From a virus: a stretch of 24,610 nucleotides of DNA. The notes below the pieces were generated by a model. That model was not told the origin of the DNA. It searched no databases and worked only from the letters and a program-made list of their open reading frames with translations. Location: positions 1 through 24,610 of IMG/VR virus record IMGVR_UViG_3300045970_000580; one strand, 5' to 3'. A program made the translations under genes and the position numbers. This document shows, piece after piece, positions 2,105 to 20,516 of this stretch; the first letter of the stretch is position 1, and each line of letters begins with the position of its first letter.

Positions 2105-2758
2105 TTATCGCAATTTTAAATCTTTGATCATTTTCAATACTTCTGTCTGAACATATTTCTGTACTTTACGATCTTGTATTGCTTCTGCAGACATATCATA
2201 TAATTTGTCGCCATGTTTCATATTTCTGAGTCCTTCATAAATGGCTTTTGGGTAGGCTGCAGGAGCGGATGGTTGAGCGACAATATCTACTGTAATTATT
2301 TCAAAATCAGAAACTCTTCCTGTAGATTCATCTACATTACCAGAACCTCTTGACGATACTCCTAGTCTAACACCTGCTTCGAGCATAACCTTGATTATGT
2401 TTCCCATCGGGGTCGGTAATAATTTTAGCTTCCCATATCCATTGGGTCCATCCATATCCATTTCTACAATTTGATGAGTAACTCTGTCAAGATTAATCTT
2501 TAAATCATCTGGATGGTCGCACTCCCCGAGCACCGGAAAATTACCTTTTATTTGTTCGTTGATGGTGTTTACTGCTTTTTTAATTTCGTGAACGGGATAA
2601 ATGCGTTGATTATGATTTCGGACGTCCCCCTGTATAAAAATTCCTTTAAGGTGTAACGTTTTGCCTTTATTTCCAAAGGCATCTTCTGATTCTTCTAAAG
2701 AAACAGCACTTTTGCTAGTTATCGGATTTATGTATTCGTGTAGAGCTATTTTTGACAT
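2105..2758 (-). CDS. 21: Prohead core serine protease gp21
   Basis: Maturation protease that cleaves the prohead core, capsid and itself during head maturation. It is 217 residues, close to T4 gp21 (about 212). Visible hallmarks are GECDHPDD with the catalytic His at 82, GVSSRGSG with the catalytic Ser at about 135-136, and ITVDIVAQPSAPA, where Asp158 probably completes the triad of this herpesvirus-protease-like fold. The ATG at 2756-2758 has AAGGA seven bases upstream. Start codon and ribosome binding site both lie inside the 3' end of the upstream endonuclease gene, with a 13-base overlap. The overlap suggests that the endonuclease gene inserted precisely, preserving gp21 translation. It is followed by gp22, as in T4. 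Confidence 0.93.
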   Translation of the reverse strand: MSKIALHEYINPITSKSAVSLEESEDAFGNKGKTLHLKGIFIQGDVRNHNQRIYPVHEIKKAVNTINEQIKGNFPVLGECDHPDDLKINLDRVTHQIVEMDMDGPNGYGKLKLLPTPMGNIIKVMLEAGVRLGVSSRGSGNVDESTGRVSDFEIITVDIVAQPSAPAAYPKAIYEGLRNMKHGDKLYDMSAEAIQDRKVQKYVQTEVLKMIKDLKLR

Positions 2759-3627
2759 ATAATTTCCTTAATACAATCGGTAAAATTTTCTGTGCTATTA
2801 AAATATTCTTCTATCTTTTCTTTACGTACACCATAAGTACGATTAATAAATTCTGGACGTTTATAATATCCACCACTTAGTATTGTTTCTGCATATTTTA
2901 GATATATTTCCTGTTGTGCTAGGGTCATTTTTGTTATATGTGTTCTATACCCAGATATAACAATTTGTTTCTTTTTAACTGGATCTTTCCATTTAGCACC
3001 AATATTTTTCTTTGCCTCATCTGTATGGTTTTTACCATAGTTGGGGTTCTTACTTCCCGTATAATCTCTATCTGCAATGGCATCCATAAATGACTTATGC
3101 CATTCATCCGACATTTTAAGTCCAAAGTTAGGATTAAGCTCTCCAGCAAATCCTTTATAATCGGTACTATGTCGACCTTTTTCAAGGTATGCATCAAACA
3201 TTTCTTTCCACTTTTCTTTTCCTATTACAGACTCTATACAAGAAATATATTTCTTTTTATTAACTTTATTCATTAATACAAAATCAAAAGTAACTAACTC
3301 TTTGACATCATATGACATATATTCATGTAATGTATAATTAATAAATATTTCAGCAATTTCTTTTTCTGATTGCTTTATTTCTGTAAGAATTACAATATCT
3401 AACTCTCTATCATAATACATAACATCGGGAATCTTACGTTTATTGGAAATAGCAGATTTAAGTGATATAGGTTCGGTTATAAATTTAGTATCCTTAACTA
3501 CATCGAGATACACGCAATAAACATATTCGTTTGTACTACGTGTAAATTGACCTTTATACTCACCACGATACCCACGTTGTATATTACGACGCATTTTAGT
3601 TTCTTCGGGAGTTTCTATTTTCTTCAT
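2746..3627 (-). CDS. Free-standing homing-endonuclease-like protein (PD-(D/E)XK plus NUMOD3)
   Basis: A 293-residue protein that is not part of the T4 head set. The N-terminal part has a PD-(D/E)XK-like nuclease signature: E34, then P67-D68, then E83-I84-K85. The centre carries two NUMOD3-like DNA-binding motifs, NPNFGLKMSDEW (from about 165) and NPNYGKNHTDEAKKNI (about 195-210), typical of phage homing endonucleases. The C-terminus is basic and helix-rich. It sits between the gp67-like gene and gp21, overlapping gp21 by 13 bases, and has a poor ribosome binding site, as selfish endonuclease genes often do. Likely role (inferred): it cuts a head-gene locus in endonuclease-free relatives and spreads by recombination. 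The catalytic family (EDxHD, Vsr-like or another) cannot be settled by eye. Confidence 0.72.
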   Translation of the reverse strand: MKKIETPEETKMRRNIQRGYRGEYKGQFTRSTNEYVYCVYLDVVKDTKFITEPISLKSAISNKRKIPDVMYYDRELDIVILTEIKQSEKEIAEIFINYTLHEYMSYDVKELVTFDFVLMNKVNKKKYISCIESVIGKEKWKEMFDAYLEKGRHSTDYKGFAGELNPNFGLKMSDEWHKSFMDAIADRDYTGSKNPNYGKNHTDEAKKNIGAKWKDPVKKKQIVISGYRTHITKMTLAQQEIYLKYAETILSGGYYKRPEFINRTYGVRKEKIEEYFNSTENFTDCIKEIICQK

Positions 3628-5094: not shown

Positions 5095-8088
5095 TTACAT
5101 TGGTCCTTCTGCTGGTGGCATTTCTCCACCACCTATATCTTCACCGCCACCCATATCACCACCCATATCTTCTCCACCACCCATATCCGCCATATTTCCT
5201 AAATCGGATGATATACCGCTTGGTGATACTCCTACACTACGTAAATTTGGATCTTCTGGTTTAGCAACATCGGTATCTGCATGTTCCTCGGCCCATAACT
5301 GTTCGTTTTCTTGCATTTCTTCTTCTGATAAACCCAAGTACCTAGTCAGTATAAATCGTTTAGCCAAGTATGGGAATTGTTCTATTTGTGTAAATGACTG
5401 TATTCTAGCCGTATCAATATCGGCCTGACGGTATTTTGTAAAGTTTTGCGGTTCATTAAATTTTAAATCAAACACACTAGCGTCTATGTTGATACCACGG
5501 AATCGCATAAACAACTTAAATTCTCGATCTAAGGTTGTCGCCATTGCATTCTGCAATCTAACACAATACTGATTAAACCGCCATTCTTGAATCATGGCCA
5601 TACCAACTTTACCATCAGAATAAGTATTTTGTGCTTCATCTGTTTGTGTCGGCAAATAACTACTTGGTATTTTTAAACCACGGAACATTTTATTTGTGAA
5701 AAAACGGAGATCTGAAATTTCGCCTAAATTCGAATTGAAATTCATAACTCCGCAATCAAGAGCAAATGTATGATAATTGTGGTACTTTTCGTCTACATCA
5801 ATAGTAAGTGTACCTACTTCTATCGGGGAATCCAAATACTCAATAGATATAATTTTGTGATTAAATAATTCGGCTTCTTTTCTAAATTGCCTCCAGTTCT
5901 TGTAACCATGGCGTGTTACTCCTACTTTTAATTGCGACTCGGTAATCCCTGTTTTATCCCAATTTGCAGATTTTGTATCTTTATTGATACCTAAGTAATA
6001 GCTCACAAACTCAGAATCAGCATTAAGTTTGTCAACTAATGTCCTAGTATTTTCTTGATGCGATGTTTTTCCTAAAAGCATAGATTGTATTTTAGCTAAT
6101 ACCGTATTATCAAATTTTACTTCTTGATTAGCATAATACTTTTCGCGAGTGCCTTCTGCATTCATAAATTTTGAAGATGCTTTGCCTATTTTGTTATTTC
6201 TTTCTTCGTACTCTTCAGTACCTCTAAATTTATCCCAACCTTCCTTTTGCGCAGTAGTAAATTTATCATAGAATTCGGGGTCAGTCTGTAACATCTCGTT
6301 TAACTTAGTATTGACAATTTTAAATGCTTTTCTAGAATTTTGAGCCCTAATTTCTCTATCTTCATCAGATAAGTTTGCTACATAATTACTAATACCTGTT
6401 GAAATACCATCACATCTATGTTTATATTCTTCATCTGAATGATTTTCCCAAATTTCGTGCATATTTTGACTGTGATAATAAATATGATCTTTAGCAGACA
6501 TAAAACATAGATTTTCAGGAGTATTATTATATCTGTCAAAATCCTTATGGTGTCTTACTTCATAATTCCCATTGCTATAATCGGGGTTGCATACTTCATA
6601 TTTCACCAACGTATCTTTAAAATAATCAGCAACCATTTGGTGTGTAAATACCCATTCTTTTGTTGCGGTATCATAAACTTGTTCATAGTCTTTGCGCAGA
6701 TTGGTTATTTTTAATGTACGGCGATTATGTGGTATCATACTTTCACCAATAGACAATTGGTCTGCGCGTAATGTCCCTTTGCCAATAATAGGGAACTTAT
6801 GATCGGGAGTAACAATCATATCTTTTCCATTATCTAAAGTAATTTTCATAACTTTTGCAGACTTTTGTGTTACTCCAGCCCAACTTACTATACCAGGTAC
6901 GATATGACCGTTTTCTGGATTACATGAATATACCCAGTTTTCTTTGCCATTTTTATATTCTTCGGTCATCTCAGTCAATGTTAAAGTTCTACCATCTAAT
7001 AACGGAACTTTCGTATCCATAGTTAAACAGCCACCGGGAAGTATGCTAACATCAGAGCCTTTTCCTTCTGATGAAACCGGAAAGAAAAAGTCTTCATTCT
7101 GACTGATCGGATTATAGGTCGCATCCATCATATTTTGCCCATTGCCGCTGTGCGTTGGAATCCTACGTTGATGAACTTCATTTTTAACTCGTTCAACAAA
7201 GGCCATAGCCAAGTGTGCTGGCATTCCACCCACATCAATTTTAAATATCCTACGTTCTGGGGCACGTTGTATGCGATATATTAGAATTGACTCTTCTAAC
7301 ATTTCTTTTTGTTTAAATACTTTAAATATATTTTCTAATACTGAGTTACCAAATGGCCATGCTGCATCTAATCCCTCACCCAATGATATATGTACCACAT
7401 GCTCTGCGTTGATCACCGACTCGTTTTTTGCATTAGAAAATCTTGATCCACCACCTGCCCCGGTTACTGCCGGAGTGTATGATCCACCAGGATTGCCAAT
7501 TGCAGGCCGATTCATATAAGTATCCGATGTTGTAACTGCGGTCACTGTTAAATTTTGTAGATTGACATTTAATTCTTTCAAAACGTATTGTTCTGGAGAT
7601 TTACCATCAGATTCATTCACTATGACTTTAGTTACCTTAGACATTTCAGTCCATAGTAATTTAAACGTTTCTGGATCTCGGACGAACACTTGATCCCCAT
7701 ACTTCACACAGTTACGGAATAACTTAAAGATACGTTTATCAAATTGATTTAGTTTATACCACTGTCTTAACTGCTCTTTGATGATTTTAATTTCATTATC
7801 GGTTGGTTTTTCATTGAATTCGATATTAAATGCGGTTCCATTTTCTACGTTAGTTTGCGTTGAGAATTCAGCCAATATATCTAATGCAGCTGATACTTCG
7901 GAATCTTGGTCCATTTGCTCGTATTGGTTATATCGTTCAATACGGTTCGGGTGTCCTACATACACATCTGGTAATTGAGATTGATAATTCTTAACCCCAA
8001 AAGAGGCTGAAGAGTCACTTGTATTTCCGCTGATTGGACTTAGTGAAGTTCCAGGTATTGCAGATTTAAAATGTTTGCGCCACGTCAT
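5095..8088 (-). CDS. 20: Portal vertex protein gp20, interrupted in-frame by an intein
   Basis: Portal ring of the head: nucleates prohead assembly and is the DNA gate. The 997-codon frame is two exteins around a 432-residue intein. The N-extein (1-353) includes DVYVGHPNRIERYNQYEQMD and the conserved run up to DVSILPGG. The C-extein (786-997) resumes SNLGEISDLRFFTNKMFRGL, so splicing restores the highly conserved gp20 stretch LPGG-x-NLGEI. The spliced protein is 565 residues, in the range of T4-like portals (T4: 524). The C-terminus is a Met/Gly/Glu-rich tail (GGGEDMGGDMGGGEDIGGGE). ATG at 8086-8088 with AAGGA upstream, and a late promoter CATAAATA at 8111-8118. It heads the head operon, as in T4. 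Confidence 0.95.
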   Translation of the reverse strand: MTWRKHFKSAIPGTSLSPISGNTSDSSASFGVKNYQSQLPDVYVGHPNRIERYNQYEQMDQDSEVSAALDILAEFSTQTNVENGTAFNIEFNEKPTDNEIKIIKEQLRQWYKLNQFDKRIFKLFRNCVKYGDQVFVRDPETFKLLWTEMSKVTKVIVNESDGKSPEQYVLKELNVNLQNLTVTAVTTSDTYMNRPAIGNPGGSYTPAVTGAGGGSRFSNAKNESVINAEHVVHISLGEGLDAAWPFGNSVLENIFKVFKQKEMLEESILIYRIQRAPERRIFKIDVGGMPAHLAMAFVERVKNEVHQRRIPTHSGNGQNMMDATYNPISQNEDFFFPVSSEGKGSDVSILPGGCLTMDTKVPLLDGRTLTLTEMTEEYKNGKENWVYSCNPENGHIVPGIVSWAGVTQKSAKVMKITLDNGKDMIVTPDHKFPIIGKGTLRADQLSIGESMIPHNRRTLKITNLRKDYEQVYDTATKEWVFTHQMVADYFKDTLVKYEVCNPDYSNGNYEVRHHKDFDRYNNTPENLCFMSAKDHIYYHSQNMHEIWENHSDEEYKHRCDGISTGISNYVANLSDEDREIRAQNSRKAFKIVNTKLNEMLQTDPEFYDKFTTAQKEGWDKFRGTEEYEERNNKIGKASSKFMNAEGTREKYYANQEVKFDNTVLAKIQSMLLGKTSHQENTRTLVDKLNADSEFVSYYLGINKDTKSANWDKTGITESQLKVGVTRHGYKNWRQFRKEAELFNHKIISIEYLDSPIEVGTLTIDVDEKYHNYHTFALDCGVMNFNSNLGEISDLRFFTNKMFRGLKIPSSYLPTQTDEAQNTYSDGKVGMAMIQEWRFNQYCVRLQNAMATTLDREFKLFMRFRGINIDASVFDLKFNEPQNFTKYRQADIDTARIQSFTQIEQFPYLAKRFILTRYLGLSEEEMQENEQLWAEEHADTDVAKPEDPNLRSVGVSPSGISSDLGNMADMGGGEDMGGDMGGGEDIGGGEMPPAEGPM
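5734..7029 (-). mobile_element. Intein with HNH-type homing endonuclease in gp20
   Basis: 432 codons, residues 354-785 of the gp20 frame. Block A: CLTMDTKVPLLDG starting with the nucleophile Cys1. Block B: MIVTPDHKF with the TxxH motif. Middle: VRHHKDFDRYNNTPENL...DHIYYH (His at 513/514), an HNH-like nuclease core, then a helical, possibly DNA-binding stretch. Block F/G: VGTLTIDVDEKYHNY, then CGVMNFN ending in the cyclising Asn785; the +1 extein residue is Ser. The penultimate residue is Phe, not the usual His, so C-terminal cleavage may be slower or depend on another residue. It is inserted in the most conserved part of the portal (LPGG|SNLGEI), as expected for an intein that must splice to persist. 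Confidence 0.93.
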
Positions 8089-8149: not shown

Positions 8150-11100
8150 TTAGTTAGTATTGGTGTGTATCTTTCTAAGGTAACTATTGCTTTCGTTTGT
8201 GGCAGTCAATAACGATTTTAAAATATCCTCTTGACTACTAAACTTATCGATTAACGAGTTAATTCCATCTACCATATTTTTAGTATGTGATTTTTCTGTG
8301 GTCGATTTTTCTTCTGCGGGTTTAGATTTATCCGAAGGTTTATATATATTTGCCCCCGCAGATGCACCATTTTGTTCGGCCGACGGGGGAGTTAGTACGG
8401 TAGCAGCATTTGGTGTATTGCTCCCTAATAGTTTATTAACTCCGCCAGCAAGGCCTAATGCACCTATTTGTAAAGCACTTGGTAAACTAGAAGATAGTTT
8501 TTTCATACTTATGGCAACTTGATCTAGTTTCACAGGGTCTAAATTACTTAATGATAGTAAATCGGTAGTTAAACTTTTAAATCCAGATGCACCACCTGCT
8601 GCTAAAGCTAATAACCCCGGAATCATAGTAGCTAATCCACCCCCAATTGCAAATAATCCCTTTCCAATTTGTACTAGATTGGCACCAGAAGCCCCATTTG
8701 AAAGATCTATAATTGACGAAGTTATGCCTTTAAATACCTTTACTATATTATCGCCTACACTAGAAAATACGTCTTTAATTCCAGAAAAAATCGAAGTTAT
8801 TACTGGTCCAGCTACTTTAAGTACTTCAACTATGCCATTACTCACACTAGTAATTATACCGCCGATATTAGATAATATCGAGGTAATTATTGGCCCAGCC
8901 ACAGAGAGAATATCAGCTATTCCACCAAATATAACCTTAATTAGTTTTCCAATTGGCTCCATTGCAGGTATTGCAGACTTAAAGGCTTCGGCTAATAGCC
9001 ATATTGACCCAGCCATCGCCGCCATTAAACCAATACCAATACCAACTGCTACCATAACTGGACCTGCACCCATTATTCCGGCCATTATAGCAAATGCCCC
9101 CACGGCAACCGTAGCTTTACCTATAGATTCCCAATCAACTTCCGCAAATATTTTTAATGCTTTGCCCAGTACAAACACAGCACCGCCTATGCCTATTAAT
9201 GCACCCACCCCCATTAATACTTTTGTTGATCCAAGTGCTGTTAGCCCATTTGCCAATCCCCTTAGTACTCCGCCGATTGCGTTGCCTGCCCCAGCACCTA
9301 TGCTGCCTATTCCTTTACCAATACCAGATAATCCTTTACCTAAGCCATCCATCACTTTGCTTGAACCACCTTTTCTACCACCACGTTCTTTACTTTTACT
9401 ACCTTTGTCTCCACCTCCCGAAAATAAATCCGGTAAGCTAGGCATTTTAAACATGCCCAATAATGATAAGGCTAACGGCGCAATAGCTAATACTGCTGTC
9501 CCGATACCAGCTAACGGTGCGGCCCATGCAGGCATTGATCCGGCTTTTGCTGCTAAGTCTGATATTGCTTTGACCGAATCTTGGATAGTAACAATAGTAT
9601 CGCGCACAGAGGTAGCAAAAGTTCCAAGATTCGATAGGGCAATATTTTGCATATCTTTAGCGAAGGTTTGTTGTAATGCCATCAATTGAACTTCTGGTGT
9701 CTTTAAATCCTTAGTATCTTTTTTATTTTTATTCGCCAGTTCTGCAATTTGTGCTGCGGTTAAGGAAGCATTTGCAAATTTTTGTGTATATTGAGCAGTA
9801 TCGTTTATAGCCTTTGCTATTTCAACCCCTGGTCCACTTCTTGCTTTACCTAATGTTGTGCCTAATTCGTTTGCATCTTTTAACATCTGAGGACCGTATT
9901 TTTGATACCCGTCTGTTACTGTTTGTACATCTAAGGTATGTGCTTCGGATGCCTTAAATTGGTCATCTTGACTTTGTGCTAATGCCGAACTCAATGCTCT
10001 AGAAGCAGCAATATCAGAGCTGATAACATTACCATATATTTTCTTTTCCCTAAATGCCCTTTGATCAACCTCGCTCATTGCTGCCATAGCAGAAACCGTT
10101 TTTAATCTTTCTACTTCTGACATCCCATTCAATACCGAGTTAAATGCCAATGTATCATTTTCTTGTCGCACTTTTTCGAGTCTAGCTTTAGCATCTTGAC
10201 CAGTTAGATCCGAAATTAATTTTAAATTTTTAGCATAATCTTGAGTAGCATTTGAAATAGTAACAGCCGTGGTATCAGATTTTAATTTACCTGCAGGACC
10301 CGCCATCAATGCCATAGTTTGTGCAGTAGCGTCTGCTTGCTCATCCATTGACATACCTAAAGCAAACATACTATTTCTTGCTTTTTCTCCGCCAGCAGCC
10401 ATTGACTCCGCCATTCTTTTACTCGCTATCCCCACACCTAAACCGGTTTTAGAGAGTATATCTTTATTTGTCGAAACTGCCTTTGAAAATTGCTCTAATG
10501 TCATACCACCATTTAATGCCGTTTGCGTCATTTCTATCATACCACCAGCATATATGGCACCAGCATTCGACATAGTTTGGAATTCAGTAATAAGTTTGCT
10601 AGTCTGGGTAAACATGAAACCCACACCTTCTTTAGCTAATCCCGCTAATGCATCTGATGCACCACCTAAGGCAGACCCTAGTAGTGAGGCACCAACACCT
10701 AACGCACCCACTCTACCTCCGGCTCCGGCAGTAGCTTTACCAAAATCAGATAGGGCATTAGTTCCTACATGAGCGGCTGCATTACCCATGTCCACCATAC
10801 CCTTCATAAAGGTTTCGGCCATGCCCATTGCATCGCCACTAAATGCCTTGCTTATTGATTCTTTTATCGCTGATCCTGCAGATTTAGCTAAAGCCCCAGC
10901 CATTGATCCCATTGCATTCTTTACCTGTTGACTTGCTTCGTTACGTGCATTTATTTCTTCAAGGTAAGACTTTTCCAAAAGTCTTCGACTCTTTGATGTT
11001 CCCTCCGACATTTCCCCAATTTCACGACGCAGTCTTTCTAAATCGTTAGACAACGATTCAGAGGTTAATAACCCCTCTTTTTGCATACGAATAGTATTTT

Positions 11101-11320
11101 GCAAATGAGACCTAGTATTGTTAATTTCTTTCTTTGCTTCTTCTCGTAATTTTTCCCTAGATTTAAGTTCAGAATAAACCACCTTCTCCATGTCAGCCGC
11201 AGTTTTCCCAAGTGTGCGCAAATTTTTAGCAACATCTTCTATATCTTTAGCTAAAAATTTTCCAGTACGAGTTAAATACTCCTTCATTGGTTCTAATTCT
11301 GAATCGATTTCCTCGGCCAT
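8150..11320 (-). CDS. Tail tape-measure-like protein (gp29 role)
   Basis: A 1056-residue protein, the longest complete tail gene here. The N-terminal 150 residues are charged and helical (coiled-coil like). Then comes an Ala/Gly/Met-rich helical body. A hydrophobic segment lies near 593-623, a Lys/Gly-rich linker near 632-654 (GDKGSKSKERGGRKGG), and a long hydrophobic region near 700-900 has several membrane-like helices (for example GALIGIGGAVFVLGKAL), followed by repeated GGIITSVSNGIVEVL / GPVITSIFSGI units. This architecture is typical of tape measure proteins, which set tail length and can enter the host membrane at infection. T4's tape measure gp29 is about 590 residues; if this is the equivalent, the tail is longer or the protein has additional domains. 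It is divergent from gp26/gp51. No direct gp29 motif is recognised, so the call is by architecture and neighbours. Confidence 0.7.
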   Translation of the reverse strand: MAEEIDSELEPMKEYLTRTGKFLAKDIEDVAKNLRTLGKTAADMEKVVYSELKSREKLREEAKKEINNTRSHLQNTIRMQKEGLLTSESLSNDLERLRREIGEMSEGTSKSRRLLEKSYLEEINARNEASQQVKNAMGSMAGALAKSAGSAIKESISKAFSGDAMGMAETFMKGMVDMGNAAAHVGTNALSDFGKATAGAGGRVGALGVGASLLGSALGGASDALAGLAKEGVGFMFTQTSKLITEFQTMSNAGAIYAGGMIEMTQTALNGGMTLEQFSKAVSTNKDILSKTGLGVGIASKRMAESMAAGGEKARNSMFALGMSMDEQADATAQTMALMAGPAGKLKSDTTAVTISNATQDYAKNLKLISDLTGQDAKARLEKVRQENDTLAFNSVLNGMSEVERLKTVSAMAAMSEVDQRAFREKKIYGNVISSDIAASRALSSALAQSQDDQFKASEAHTLDVQTVTDGYQKYGPQMLKDANELGTTLGKARSGPGVEIAKAINDTAQYTQKFANASLTAAQIAELANKNKKDTKDLKTPEVQLMALQQTFAKDMQNIALSNLGTFATSVRDTIVTIQDSVKAISDLAAKAGSMPAWAAPLAGIGTAVLAIAPLALSLLGMFKMPSLPDLFSGGGDKGSKSKERGGRKGGSSKVMDGLGKGLSGIGKGIGSIGAGAGNAIGGVLRGLANGLTALGSTKVLMGVGALIGIGGAVFVLGKALKIFAEVDWESIGKATVAVGAFAIMAGIMGAGPVMVAVGIGIGLMAAMAGSIWLLAEAFKSAIPAMEPIGKLIKVIFGGIADILSVAGPIITSILSNIGGIITSVSNGIVEVLKVAGPVITSIFSGIKDVFSSVGDNIVKVFKGITSSIIDLSNGASGANLVQIGKGLFAIGGGLATMIPGLLALAAGGASGFKSLTTDLLSLSNLDPVKLDQVAISMKKLSSSLPSALQIGALGLAGGVNKLLGSNTPNAATVLTPPSAEQNGASAGANIYKPSDKSKPAEEKSTTEKSHTKNMVDGINSLIDKFSSQEDILKSLLTATNESNSYLRKIHTNTN

Positions 11321-11344: not shown

Positions 11345-11352
11345 TATAAATA
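11345..11352 (+). promoter_or_regulatory. T4-type late promoter for gp26/gp51
   Basis: Perfect TATAAATA followed by CTAG, as in the T4 late consensus TATAAATACTATT. It points right, about 75 bases upstream of the gp26 start, and forms one arm of an inverted repeat with the opposite promoter at 11366-11373. Confidence 0.8.
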
Positions 11353-11365
11353 CTAGTGTATAGTT

Positions 11366-11373
11366 TATTTATA
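11366..11373 (-). promoter_or_regulatory. T4-type late promoter for tape-measure gene
   Basis: Perfect TATAAATA on the minus strand, about 46 bases upstream of the tape-measure start codon. It faces the plus-strand late promoter with 13 bases between them. Arms GTATAAATA / TATTTATAC make a 9-bp inverted repeat, so the two RNA polymerase footprints overlap and the expected start points nearly coincide. Confidence 0.8.
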
Positions 11374-11425: not shown

Positions 11426-12271
11426 ATGAACCAGAATAATAACCCATTACAGAAACACTTTCGTCAACCATCAATATATATCCAATTAACGTCTAAAGGA
11501 CAATTTTGGAAGGATGGTGCGGTCGACTTAGGGGTAACCGGAGAACTACCAATTTACCCAATGACAGCAAAAGATGAAGTAACTCTACGCACTCCAGACG
11601 CATTACTAAACGGTACTAGCGTAGTCGATGTTATTCAATCTTGCTGCCCAAATATCAAAAATGCTTGGGAAATGCCTTCGGTAGACGTCGACTCAACATT
11701 GATTGCTATACGTATCGCAAGCTATGGTCAAAGTATGGGTGTCACATCTAAATGCCCAAAATGTAACGAAGAACACGATTACGATATAGATTTGCATAAC
11801 GTATTAGCACAGATTAGAATGCCAGATTATAATAAGACATTGACTACAACCGACGGATTAGTAATCAAATTTAAACCCATTAACTATTTACAGGTTTCAA
11901 AAGCAGCCGGGATCGTATTCGAAGAAGAGAAGTTGATTAGGGCATTAGCCGATACAACTACAGATGAAGAGGTACGCAAACTCGATTTCGCCAAACGTGT
12001 AGATAATATGGTGAATCTAAATAATGAGAATATCACTAACGCAACCGAAAGTATTACCGCAGAAGGAACTATAGTATCCGACCCAAAATTCATCAGCGAA
12101 TACTATCAGAATGCGCAAGGTAGTGTATTACGCGAGGTGCAAGATATGATTAAGCAATTTTCAGAAGAAGTTAGCATTAAACCTATTGATACGTTATGTA
12201 CTTCTTGCAATCACGAGTTTAAATTGAATGTGGAATTTGATTACTCGCATTTTTTCGCCAAAGGCTCTTAA
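11426..12271 (+). CDS. 26: Baseplate hub/assembly protein gp26-like
   Basis: A 281-residue protein resembling the T4 gp26 family of baseplate hub assembly proteins. It opens with a conserved segment (QPSIYIQLTSKGQFWKDGAV, then ELPIYPMTAKDEVTLRTPDA). It has two CxxC pairs, C110-P-K-C113 and C258-T-S-C261, that probably form one zinc ribbon. The ATG follows AAAAGGAC at a good distance and lies downstream of a perfect late promoter. The gene ends TAA at 12269-12271, but a canonical -1 slippery heptamer sits five codons earlier (12250-12256), joining it to the gp51-like frame. It is divergent from the tape-measure-like gene, which fits a tail-assembly chaperone role. Family assignment is from memory of gp26 homologues; T4 gp26 is shorter (about 208 aa). 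Confidence 0.8.
   Translation: MNQNNNPLQKHFRQPSIYIQLTSKGQFWKDGAVDLGVTGELPIYPMTAKDEVTLRTPDALLNGTSVVDVIQSCCPNIKNAWEMPSVDVDSTLIAIRIASYGQSMGVTSKCPKCNEEHDYDIDLHNVLAQIRMPDYNKTLTTTDGLVIKFKPINYLQVSKAAGIVFEEEKLIRALADTTTDEEVRKLDFAKRVDNMVNLNNENITNATESITAEGTIVSDPKFISEYYQNAQGSVLREVQDMIKQFSEEVSIKPIDTLCTSCNHEFKLNVEFDYSHFFAKGS
12250..12256 (+). other. Putative -1 ribosomal frameshift site
   Basis: T TTT TTC in the gp26 reading frame (codons TTT TTC, residues 276-277) fits X XXY YYZ. Both Phe codons re-pair to TTT in the -1 frame. The -1 frame then stays open for 76 codons to TAA at 12484-12486. Small hairpins follow: CGAT-GAA-ATCG (12282-12292) and the perfect ATCTAT-TTG-ATAGAT (12296-12310). Confidence 0.7.
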
Positions 12272-12486
12272 CACTCAGCAACGATGAAATCGTAAATCTA
12301 TTTGATAGATACGAGAAAGAGATTAAGGCCGTAAAAGAAGAATCATTTCGTTTATCGTGGTATATGAGAGGTGGACTCGATATGGGAGATTCTATGTTAT
12401 TGAGTAATCAAGACAAAGAAATTCTAAATAAAATCATATCAGAAAACCTAGAGATTTCGAAAAAGTCAGGATTACCATTTTTTTAA
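12256..12486 (+). CDS. 51: gp51-like domain, read by -1 frameshift from gp26
   Basis: A 76-codon open frame encodes RQRLLTLSNDEIVNLF, a charged helix (DRYEKEIKAVKEES), the signature WYMRGG, and a helical end closing in KKSGLPFF. WYMRGG followed by an acidic helix and an NIE.TK.S.MP-type end is, as I recall, the pattern of the short gp51-type baseplate hub assembly protein that follows gp26 in marine T4-like phages. The frame has no ATG, GTG or TTG between its upstream stop (TGA at 12238-12240) and the ATG at 12364, which would cut the protein through WYMRGG and lacks a ribosome binding site. The likely product is therefore a 353-residue gp26-gp51 fusion made by -1 slippage after residue 277. 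A terminator follows 20 bases after the stop. Confidence 0.75.
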   Translation, partial: RQRLLTLSNDEIVNLFDRYEKEIKAVKEESFRLSWYMRGGLDMGDSMLLSNQDKEILNKIISENLEISKKSGLPFF

Positions 12487-12505: not shown

Positions 12506-12534
12506 AAGGTTGTAGAAATACAACCTTTTCTTTT
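12506..12534 (+). terminator. Rho-independent terminator of gp26/gp51
   Basis: Perfect 9-bp stem AAGGTTGTA / TACAACCTT closed by a GAAA tetraloop (12506-12527), followed by TTCTTTT. It is 20 bases after the gp51-frame stop. On the other strand there is no U-run, so it acts rightward only. Confidence 0.88.
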
Positions 12535-12600
12535 GCCTAACTAGATACCTTTTCTACTCGTGGTATACCATTTATGTAATAATTGATTGATTTACTATTA

Positions 12601-12651
12601 GTTGTCTTTCGCTTTGCTCAATCCAACTGTATTTTCGCTATCGCTCAATAC
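12601..12651 (-). repeat. Twin tandem-G.A hairpins
   Basis: Two adjacent related hairpins, separated by one base. On the minus strand, 12629-12651 reads GTATT-GA-GC-GATA-GC-GA-A-AATAC and 12601-12627 reads GTTG-GA-TT-GA-GC-AAA-GC-GA-AA-GA-CAAC. Outer stems differ but pair (GTATT/AATAC versus GTTG/CAAC), while the GA opposite GA internal loops are kept. This looks like a duplicated RNA module with compensatory change. Confidence 0.6.
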
Positions 12652-12766
12652 GTTTTCTTTTCTTTCTTACTGTAAATTGTTATGGTAATTCTATTAGCTA
12701 ATACATGACTGCTATTATTTGCTTTTGCTTTTAAGGATGCTATCTAACCAGAGCATAGCACACAAA

Positions 12767-12833
12767 TATAAGATGGATTTTAAAAAAAGAACCTGTCAGG
12801 CAAGTCTCCAGAATTTTTAAAATACATCTTATA
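12767..12833 (-). other. Long stem-loop within the noncoding region
   Basis: Arms 12767-12785 and 12815-12833 pair over 19 positions with one mismatch (TATAAGATG.ATTTTAAAA-type arm). The 29-base loop contains the small palindrome CCTGACAGG. Directly abutting it, 12833-12840 can pair with 13033-13040 (GAGCTCGT/ACGAGCTC), which would stack the two helices. Confidence 0.65.
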
Positions 12834-13410
12834 CGAGCTCTAACCGTCACAAGCATCAACTCTGAAATTATATGCCAAAAGATGATCATTCGTTCCTCAT
12901 CTCTATCTCCTACTTATATCACGTGTAACCGTGTCGCTGTTCAGGCGTCGAAGATTTCTGGGCTATGGAGGGGATTGACTATGTCATTCCAGACTGTATT
13001 ACTACAGTTTCCAGGCGTGTCGTCTGTTTTATGAGCTCGTCGTTGACACTTGCTCCAGACCCGGTAGGATTAGCGTTATTATGAACTACCGGCCACTTTT
13101 ATTTAACCTTATTCTAGTATTAAATATTTACTAGTCAAATCAATTCAATCATCAACGTTCTATACTTTTTATAAGGTGGTAACCTTAAAGGACTGCTCAT
13201 CGCAGTATACTAGATCGAGCTGATACTCTTAAGGCAGGGGCGCACAACATGAAGAGGCACGTGCCATCTAGATATACTTCGGACTCTAGACAGATCCAAT
13301 AATCAGTTAAATAACGGTACTACTTTAAGGGTTCTGTATTTTATTATGAGATGGTCTCTGGGTATTGCTTAGGTAAATTATTGACATGGTGTCTGGTGAT
13401 GCGTTTTATC

Positions 13411-19601: not shown

Positions 19602-19609
19602 TATTTATT
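19602..19609 (-). promoter_or_regulatory. Weak late-promoter-like box for the Gly-rich protein
   Basis: Minus strand GAATAAATAACTAT overlaps the gp55 stop region and lies about 63 bases upstream of the Gly-rich protein start. It has 7 of 8 bases to TATAAATA (first T replaced). Position is sensible; the score alone is weak. Confidence 0.3.
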
Positions 19610-20516
19610 CATCGTGGCCGGCCACATGATAATCATCGCTATTTTGCCTACTAAACGATGGTGCCAAATCGTTCATCTGCAAAATATCATCGCGAATATT
19701 TTGATTCTTCTTCTCGATATTTAGCACTCGGGTAAAACTGTTCTGTAAGATCATCGTTAGGTAGGAGAAGGGGTTAGCACTAACCGATTCATCAAATTGC
19801 AATCCAACCTGAGATAATTGTAAAAGAGAAGTAGATTTCATCTCATCAACATAAGTATAAGACCGCCAGTTGTATCTAGAAGCATATCGATCTGTAAGTT
19901 TCATAAACATCTGCGCCAATTCCCTAGAAATTTGCCCATGCATCTTATTAAACGACCCAAGTTCCAAATCGCCTTGCCAATGCGATTTTCCGACACATAT
20001 CAAATTATTAGTATTCTCATCGAGTTTCCAGTGTTGAAATGGTTGAAAATTGACTTTAACATATTTCTTAGATGGGGCGACTACTTCTGGGATAGGAAGA
20101 TCGTATTCGGTAACGATACTCTCTAGTGGATCAATAGATTCGATTATTGACGAAATTGATTTTTTCTTACCTTTGATAACCTTTGGTACAATAACGGCTT
20201 CGGGAATATGATCCCAAGTTTTAAACCTAAAAATAACATCAGAAGGTTTAATCATATCTTCTGGGACATCCACATCTTCGGCGAATACCTTCACACCTTG
20301 GGAAGCATAAATTTCAACTGCCAATTTTGCTAACCTATCTCTTCTAATAGTGACTGCTTCCCCACTATCTAATAATTTCTGCATTTCGTGTAGACCAGAA
20401 ACTATCATATCGTAATCTGAATATTTTGAGTCGGTGAAACTACAATAAGATGTCTTACTTTTGTGTATTTCCTTCATTAAATCTCGGTTATTCAAATAAT
20501 TGATTGGGCGGGCCAT
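19605..20516 (-). CDS. 55: Late-transcription sigma factor gp55
   Basis: Phage sigma factor that directs host RNA polymerase to TATAAATA late promoters, with the sliding clamp as activator in T4. The N-terminus INYLNNRDLMKEIHKSK resembles T4 gp55 (NYVNNKELL..I..WK). The C-terminal half has the sigma region-2-like block: LAQMFMKLTDRYASRYNWRS, then EMKSTSLLQL, then SVSANPFSYLTMILQNSFTR, parallel to T4 'FNFSGYTQSW...NPHAYITQACFNAF'. At 303 residues it is much longer than T4 gp55 (185) because of an insertion of about 100 residues between the first motif and the sigma core. ATG at 20514-20516 immediately follows a 28-codon ORF. Several late promoters in this window are its likely targets. Confidence 0.88.
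   Translation of the reverse strand: MARPINYLNNRDLMKEIHKSKTSYCSFTDSKYSDYDMIVSGLHEMQKLLDSGEAVTIRRDRLAKLAVEIYASQGVKVFAEDVDVPEDMIKPSDVIFRFKTWDHIPEAVIVPKVIKGKKKSISSIIESIDPLESIVTEYDLPIPEVVAPSKKYVKVNFQPFQHWKLDENTNNLICVGKSHWQGDLELGSFNKMHGQISRELAQMFMKLTDRYASRYNWRSYTYVDEMKSTSLLQLSQVGLQFDESVSANPFSYLTMILQNSFTRVLNIEKKNQNIRDDILQMNDLAPSFSRQNSDDYHVAGHDE

Follow-up and report, generated by a model that had tools for sequence, protein, structure and literature searches.

The gp26 locus and its surroundings

The stretch of DNA analyzed here (the window; 24,610 nt) is a 24.6-kb viral record that carries T4-type genes for portal, prohead protease, baseplate wedge, and late sigma factor. It contains a gp26-type gene whose product matches the Pfam family PF12322 (T4_baseplate; 1e-17, 65 bits versus a curated cut-off of 24.5) and phrog_150 (baseplate hub; 5e-19, 69.8 bits). 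We predicted structures for this gp26 and for one natural T4-type gp51. The AlphaFold model of gp26 had a pLDDT of 87, and its fold resembles that of predicted T4-like baseplate hub assembly proteins. Neither sequence search nor fold search found a relative in the PDB. Weaker fold matches of the gp26 model were uncharacterised proteins of the jumbo phages phiRSL1, phiEaH2, Special G, and PaBG, which possibly are unrecognised chaperones of the same fold.

At its 3' end, the gp26 frame reads CAT TTT TTC GCC AAA GGC TCT TAA, with the stop codon at 12269-12271 and with codon 277 being the TTC of the heptamer T TTT TTC. The -1 frame, which is closed by a stop codon at 12484-12486, translates to LLAFFRQRLLTLSND...WYMRGG...SGLPFF, and its earliest ATG, GTG, or TTG is the ATG of WYM. 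A slip at the heptamer would add the 76 residues encoded by 12256-12483, and the predicted fusion would comprise 277 + 76 = 353 residues. The initial annotation had described the heptamer, the gp26 stop, and the open -1 frame, as well as the lack of a start codon ahead of WYM and the length of the fusion, all of which proved correct in the sequence and its translations. As a terminator-like hairpin follows the -1 frame, gp26 and its extension would share one transcript. Past this unit, about 850 bases (12530-13410) are devoid of open reading frames of at least 60 aa and have no Rfam or tRNA match.

Table 1. Features of the gp26 locus in the window.
Feature	Position	Strand	Basis
Divergent tape-measure-like gene, 1056 aa, presumed client	8150..11320	-	phrog_1272, phrog_3981
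TATAAATA, T4-late-promoter-like box upstream of gp26	11345..11352	+	sequence
gp26-type gene, short product (TAC-N / 'G' equivalent), 281 aa	11426..12271	+	ORF; PF12322; phrog_150; AlphaFold model
Open -1 frame, 'T'/TAC-C domain	12241..12486	+	translation; codon-position divergence
Slippery heptamer T TTT TTC, gp26 phase	12250..12256	+	sequence; kept in intact relatives and several distant phages
5' arm of RNA stem, GGC-U-CUUAA, one bulged U	12263..12271	+	folding; co-variation in relatives
3' arm of RNA stem, UUAAGGCC	12323..12330	+	folding; co-variation in relatives
Intrinsic-terminator-like hairpin and T-rich tail, 3' of the -1 frame	12506..12527	+	sequence

The gene that diverges from gp26 matches phrog_1272 (tail length tape measure protein; 3e-7) and phrog_3981 (2e-5), which bears out the earlier description of this neighbor as tape-measure-like. 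A tape-measure gene is thus adjacent to gp26, but it is divergent and not directly downstream. The same order of portal gene, large structural gene, and divergent gp26 is found in 121Q, XbC2, GAP32, and CBB. Between the tape-measure-like gene and gp26, two T4-late-type TATAAATA boxes lie in opposite orientation (11345-11373). The window shows no enrichment of these boxes, and the placement of the one upstream of gp26 is suggestive only. A late sigma factor gene is found at 19605-20516 (phrog_12791, 4e-68). In the T4-type portal gene (5095-8088, minus strand), an intein and its HNH region lie at about residues 353-775 (Pfam Intein_splicing 8e-13, HNH_3), and an open reading frame with a NUMOD3 motif (2746-3627, minus strand) is probably a homing endonuclease gene that was inserted beside the prohead protease gene.

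Conservation of the slippery heptamer

TTTTTTC occurs 14 times in the window, with 15.5 occurrences expected by chance, and the case for frameshifting must therefore rest on comparison. Where the heptamer lies at the junction, and how widely it is kept there, is far from what chance would give. We compared the junction in 24 IMG/VR relatives, seven named jumbo phages, and a deeper sample of 80 loci. The nearest named relatives of the window are the jumbo phages Phosso, Atu_ph07, XbC2, 121Q, GAP32, CBB, and PA5oct, with 29-35% identity, and all seven have the heptamer. Altogether, T TTT TTC was present at the junction in 97 of the 98 distinct homologous loci that were read automatically. L136 alone escaped this reading, for the sole reason that two upstream stops break its gp26; heptamer and extension were intact on inspection, so that all 98 junctions keep T TTT TTC. 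The two stop codons of L136 (L136:3001-3837) are adjacent and lie near residue 114, which may reflect readthrough, a sequencing error, or decay.

The heptamer also extends to the distant phages KVP40, P-SSM2, S-PM2, phiW-14, and Vibrio 2.275.O, and the likewise distant HTVC008M, Cr30, and phiM12 have T7-T8 variants at the junction. In Salmonella phage Vi01 (L062), a gp51-type domain follows gp26 in the -1 frame at GAA ATT TTC ATT TAA, which contains no canonical heptamer. In the relatives, the gp26 stop follows 3, 6, 9, or 12 nt past the heptamer, and complete -1 frames run for 73-91 codons without a stop. Elsewhere in gp26, Phe is encoded by 650 TTT and 197 TTC codons (77% TTT). With this preference for TTT, the invariant TTT-TTC does not follow simple codon preference, and a T followed by TTT-TTC should be uncommon if the site were unconstrained.

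Coding selection in the -1 frame

Among 75 extensions of equal length, the divergence at the first, second, and third codon positions of the -1 frame was 0.39, 0.24, and 0.58, respectively. Judged by this third-position bias, the -1 frame evolves as a translated coding sequence, and the question is how ribosomes enter it. Current annotations of gp51 in cyanophages, 121Q, and KVP40 assume that the -1 domain is a separate small protein made from its own start, which possibly could be non-canonical or translationally coupled. Indeed, the records of P-SSM2, S-PM2, KVP40, 121Q, and XbC2 contain a separate small gene at the junction, and in L024, L026, L027, and L105 an ATGA overlap exists at the gp26 stop. 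However, the window has no ATG, GTG, or TTG before WYM, and the starts in relatives are often absent and otherwise scattered. Over the 30 codons that open the -1 frame, 49 of 96 relatives have neither ATG nor GTG, and 20 of these 96 also have no TTG; in the other half, the position of an ATG or GTG varies and is not conserved. The overlapping frame is thus under coding selection without a conserved start of its own. The initial annotation had asked whether a slippery site and a start-less gp51 frame are conserved in relatives: the heptamer is kept in 98 of 98 junctions, and some of the relatives lack every start codon in these 30 codons. As a separate start would also leave the invariant heptamer and the co-varying stem described below unexplained, we regard it as improbable.

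A co-varying RNA stem downstream of the heptamer

The 5' arm of a predicted RNA stem begins 6 nt past the heptamer in the window, and in most relatives the stem begins about 3-6 nt 3' of it. In the commonest register, GGCTYTTRA, located 6 nt past the heptamer, pairs with TYAARAGCC about 50 nt further on, and other 3' arms are used by subclades. The stem of the window itself has 8 bp with one bulged U and folds with no more than ordinary energy (z of -1.3 to -1.8). Clearly stronger z-scores downstream of the heptamer were obtained with L001 (-4.3), L004 (-6.7), Atu_ph07 (-5.8), and L103 (-5.3). At least 8 uninterrupted pairs were found in 75 of 91 loci versus 59 of 455 control windows inside gp26. 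A clear stem was absent in the relatives L030-L032, L094, and L101, and the stem is weaker or absent in 121Q-type relatives.

Using a gap-free alignment of 73 sequences, we compared pairing and covariation with 500 shuffles and with slid registers. The pairing of 71.8% was above all 500 shuffles and every slid register, and the covariation of 0.214 was reached by none of the 500 shuffles (0.127 shuffled) and by no slid register. Two tightly coupled pairs are decisive, namely T18-A77/C18-G77 (Fisher 7e-13) and G21-C74/A21-T74 (Fisher 7e-11). On the 5' side of each pair, the base is the third position of a Leu codon of the -1 frame and its changes are synonymous (CTT/CTC and TTG/TTA), whereas changes on the 3' side alter the amino acid, and this coupling is unpredicted by protein constraint. 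A gp26 tree implies 8 and 11 same-branch changes for the two pairs, all of them pair-preserving, versus 1.4 and 1.1 expected.

Under a null model of synonymous codons, the aggregate for the stem was clearly above expectation (22.4 versus 15.3), but only 37 of 91 loci individually passed at the 5% level, the window not being among them. This null is conservative because the pooled codon usage already includes the codons of the arms. RNAalifold gave no consensus fold for the full mixed set, probably owing to the differing 3' arms of the subclades, and there was no match to Rfam families at the junction. An SD-like stimulator upstream of the heptamer was not found in the window's clade. P-SSM2 and S-PM2 differ in this respect, as they combine a GGAGG located about 10 nt upstream with a downstream local hairpin in place of the long-range stem. 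In the relatives, the co-varying stem is a candidate stimulatory element, which is weaker in the window itself.

In view of these data, we think that a large environmental and jumbo-phage group of T4 relatives probably drives chaperone frameshifting with a long-range stem that has a loop of about 50 nt and a 3' arm inside the coding sequence of the extension. In this group, selection on the RNA would make the choice of T-domain residues (K/R; S,T,A/V,I) follow that of synonymous Leu codons, and subclades would have relocated the 3' arm.

The stem also bears on a slippage of RNA polymerase, rather than of the ribosome, on the T-run, which would likewise yield the fused frame. There is a T-run at the site, and it reaches T7-T8 in the three distant phages mentioned above, but all 97 intact relatives have exactly T6 followed by C, and the run has not drifted to greater lengths. 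For transcriptional slippage to be efficient, longer runs are usually required. An RNA stem downstream, at a spacing suited to ribosomes, points to translation, and we therefore consider polymerase slippage very improbable. As the window is just one metagenomic viral contig, it might be suspected that an error of assembly or sequencing broke a formerly continuous gene. This has a negligible probability and is refuted by the recurrence of the same junction in about 100 contigs that are independent of each other and in the finished genomes of phages in culture.

Relation to T4 gp26 and gp51

T4 gp26 and gp51 are encoded by separate, divergently placed genes without a frameshift, in contrast to the one gene with a -1 frame in the window. 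Both T4 proteins match PF12322/phrog_150, but gp51 spans positions 3-281 of phrog_150 and gp26 only 10-236. T4 gp51 thus is a full-length gp26-like protein plus a tail, which makes it the in-frame counterpart of the whole fusion. The -1 frame had initially been equated with gp51; it would correspond to the gp51-type tail domain (phrog_634), but not to the complete gp51 of T4. T4 gp51 is required for assembly and is missing from the particle (PMC3004832).

Overlapping frames encode the front and the back part of phrog_150 in P-SSM2, S-PM2, HTVC008M, Cr30, and phiM12, with the back frame shifted by -1. The P-SSM2 fusion spans positions 5-278 and also matches phrog_634 ('baseplate hub assembly catalyst'), as does T4 gp51. 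KVP40, P-SSM2, and S-PM2 have the same T TTT TTC at the end of gp26 and a gp51-tail domain in the -1 frame, yet their records annotate two genes at the junction; in that of KVP40, the small gene is likened to a C-terminal stretch of 40 residues in T4 gp51. HHalign linked T4-type gp51 C-termini to the cyanophage -1 domains (E=5e-7) and these to window-type -1 domains (E=1e-4, prob 57%); the window's own -1 domain falls short of the C-terminal part of phrog_150 and of phrog_634 and is connected via such intermediates only, at the same position and in the same register. At the level of folds, the T4-type gp51 model matches structures predicted for gp26 (Aeromonas phage 25 gp26, 4e-9).

With T4 gp51 being a gp26-like protein plus tail, and the -1 domain probably corresponding to the gp51 C-terminus, the two products would be a short/long tail assembly chaperone pair of the G/GT type. 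The phrog_150 coverage, the HHalign links, and the fold match are most simply explained if the T4 pair represents these two products placed on two genes.

Probable programmed frameshifting in a putative tail assembly chaperone gene

Taken together, we consider it highly probable that gp26 and the start-less -1 frame constitute one tail assembly chaperone gene, which would give rise to a short and a long form by a stem-assisted -1 slip at T TTT TTC. The conservation of the heptamer, the third-position-biased divergence, and the co-varying stem make programmed -1 frameshifting at 12250-12256 very likely, in line with the initial annotation. We infer that most ribosomes would stop at 12269 and produce the short form of 281 aa, and that a minority would slip back by one base on T TTT TTC, where tRNA-Phe would re-pair in both the P and A sites. 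The RNA stem about 6 nt downstream would help this slippage, and the slipped ribosomes would produce the long form of 353 aa, which ends in the gp51-type domain. As lambda G/GT suggests by analogy, the N-terminal part would serve to coat the tape-measure protein, which probably is the product of 8150-11320, and recruitment of tail-tube subunits would fall to the extension.

The role as tail assembly chaperone is likely by homology and genomic context, and the proposed lambda analogy gains from T4 gp51, which is equivalent to the fusion but encoded in one frame. There are also differences: the slippery sequence is not that of lambda, no relation in sequence or fold was detected, the N-terminal protein is larger than lambda G and bears a zinc ribbon, and the tape-measure gene is divergent in the window and downstream in lambda.

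Relation to previous work and implications

The tail assembly chaperone genes of T4-like phages, including the two separate genes of T4, were reportedly identified by Vladimirov, Gautam and Davidson in 2022 (Virology 566:9-15), and the abstract of that paper is said to name genes 26 and 51 and to state that frameshifting is conserved in several T4-like groups. In the literature, we found gp26/gp51 frameshifting only by an indirect citation: PMC10885494 refers to Vladimirov, Gautam & Davidson 2022 for some T4-like phages that have a short gene and a long, fused one. To recast gp26/gp51 as tail assembly chaperones, the main idea of the initial annotation, is thus supported and correct, but, going by this citation, not new, as it was published in 2022. 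In an earlier review, G-T frameshifting had been described as widely conserved in long-tailed phages 'except T4' (Atkins et al., 2016; PMC5009743). The co-varying stem and the spread into the environmental and jumbo-phage group may be new additions.

The main value of our analysis lies in this stem, which is a ready and testable candidate for a stimulatory element, and in the correction of widespread split annotations. The data fit a simple history in which frameshifting is widespread in T4 relatives, including KVP40 from T4's own family, and in which T4 has distributed the two products over genes 26 and 51. Small 'gp51' entries, as found in the records of cyanophages and other phages, would then probably be mis-annotated extensions and not genes.
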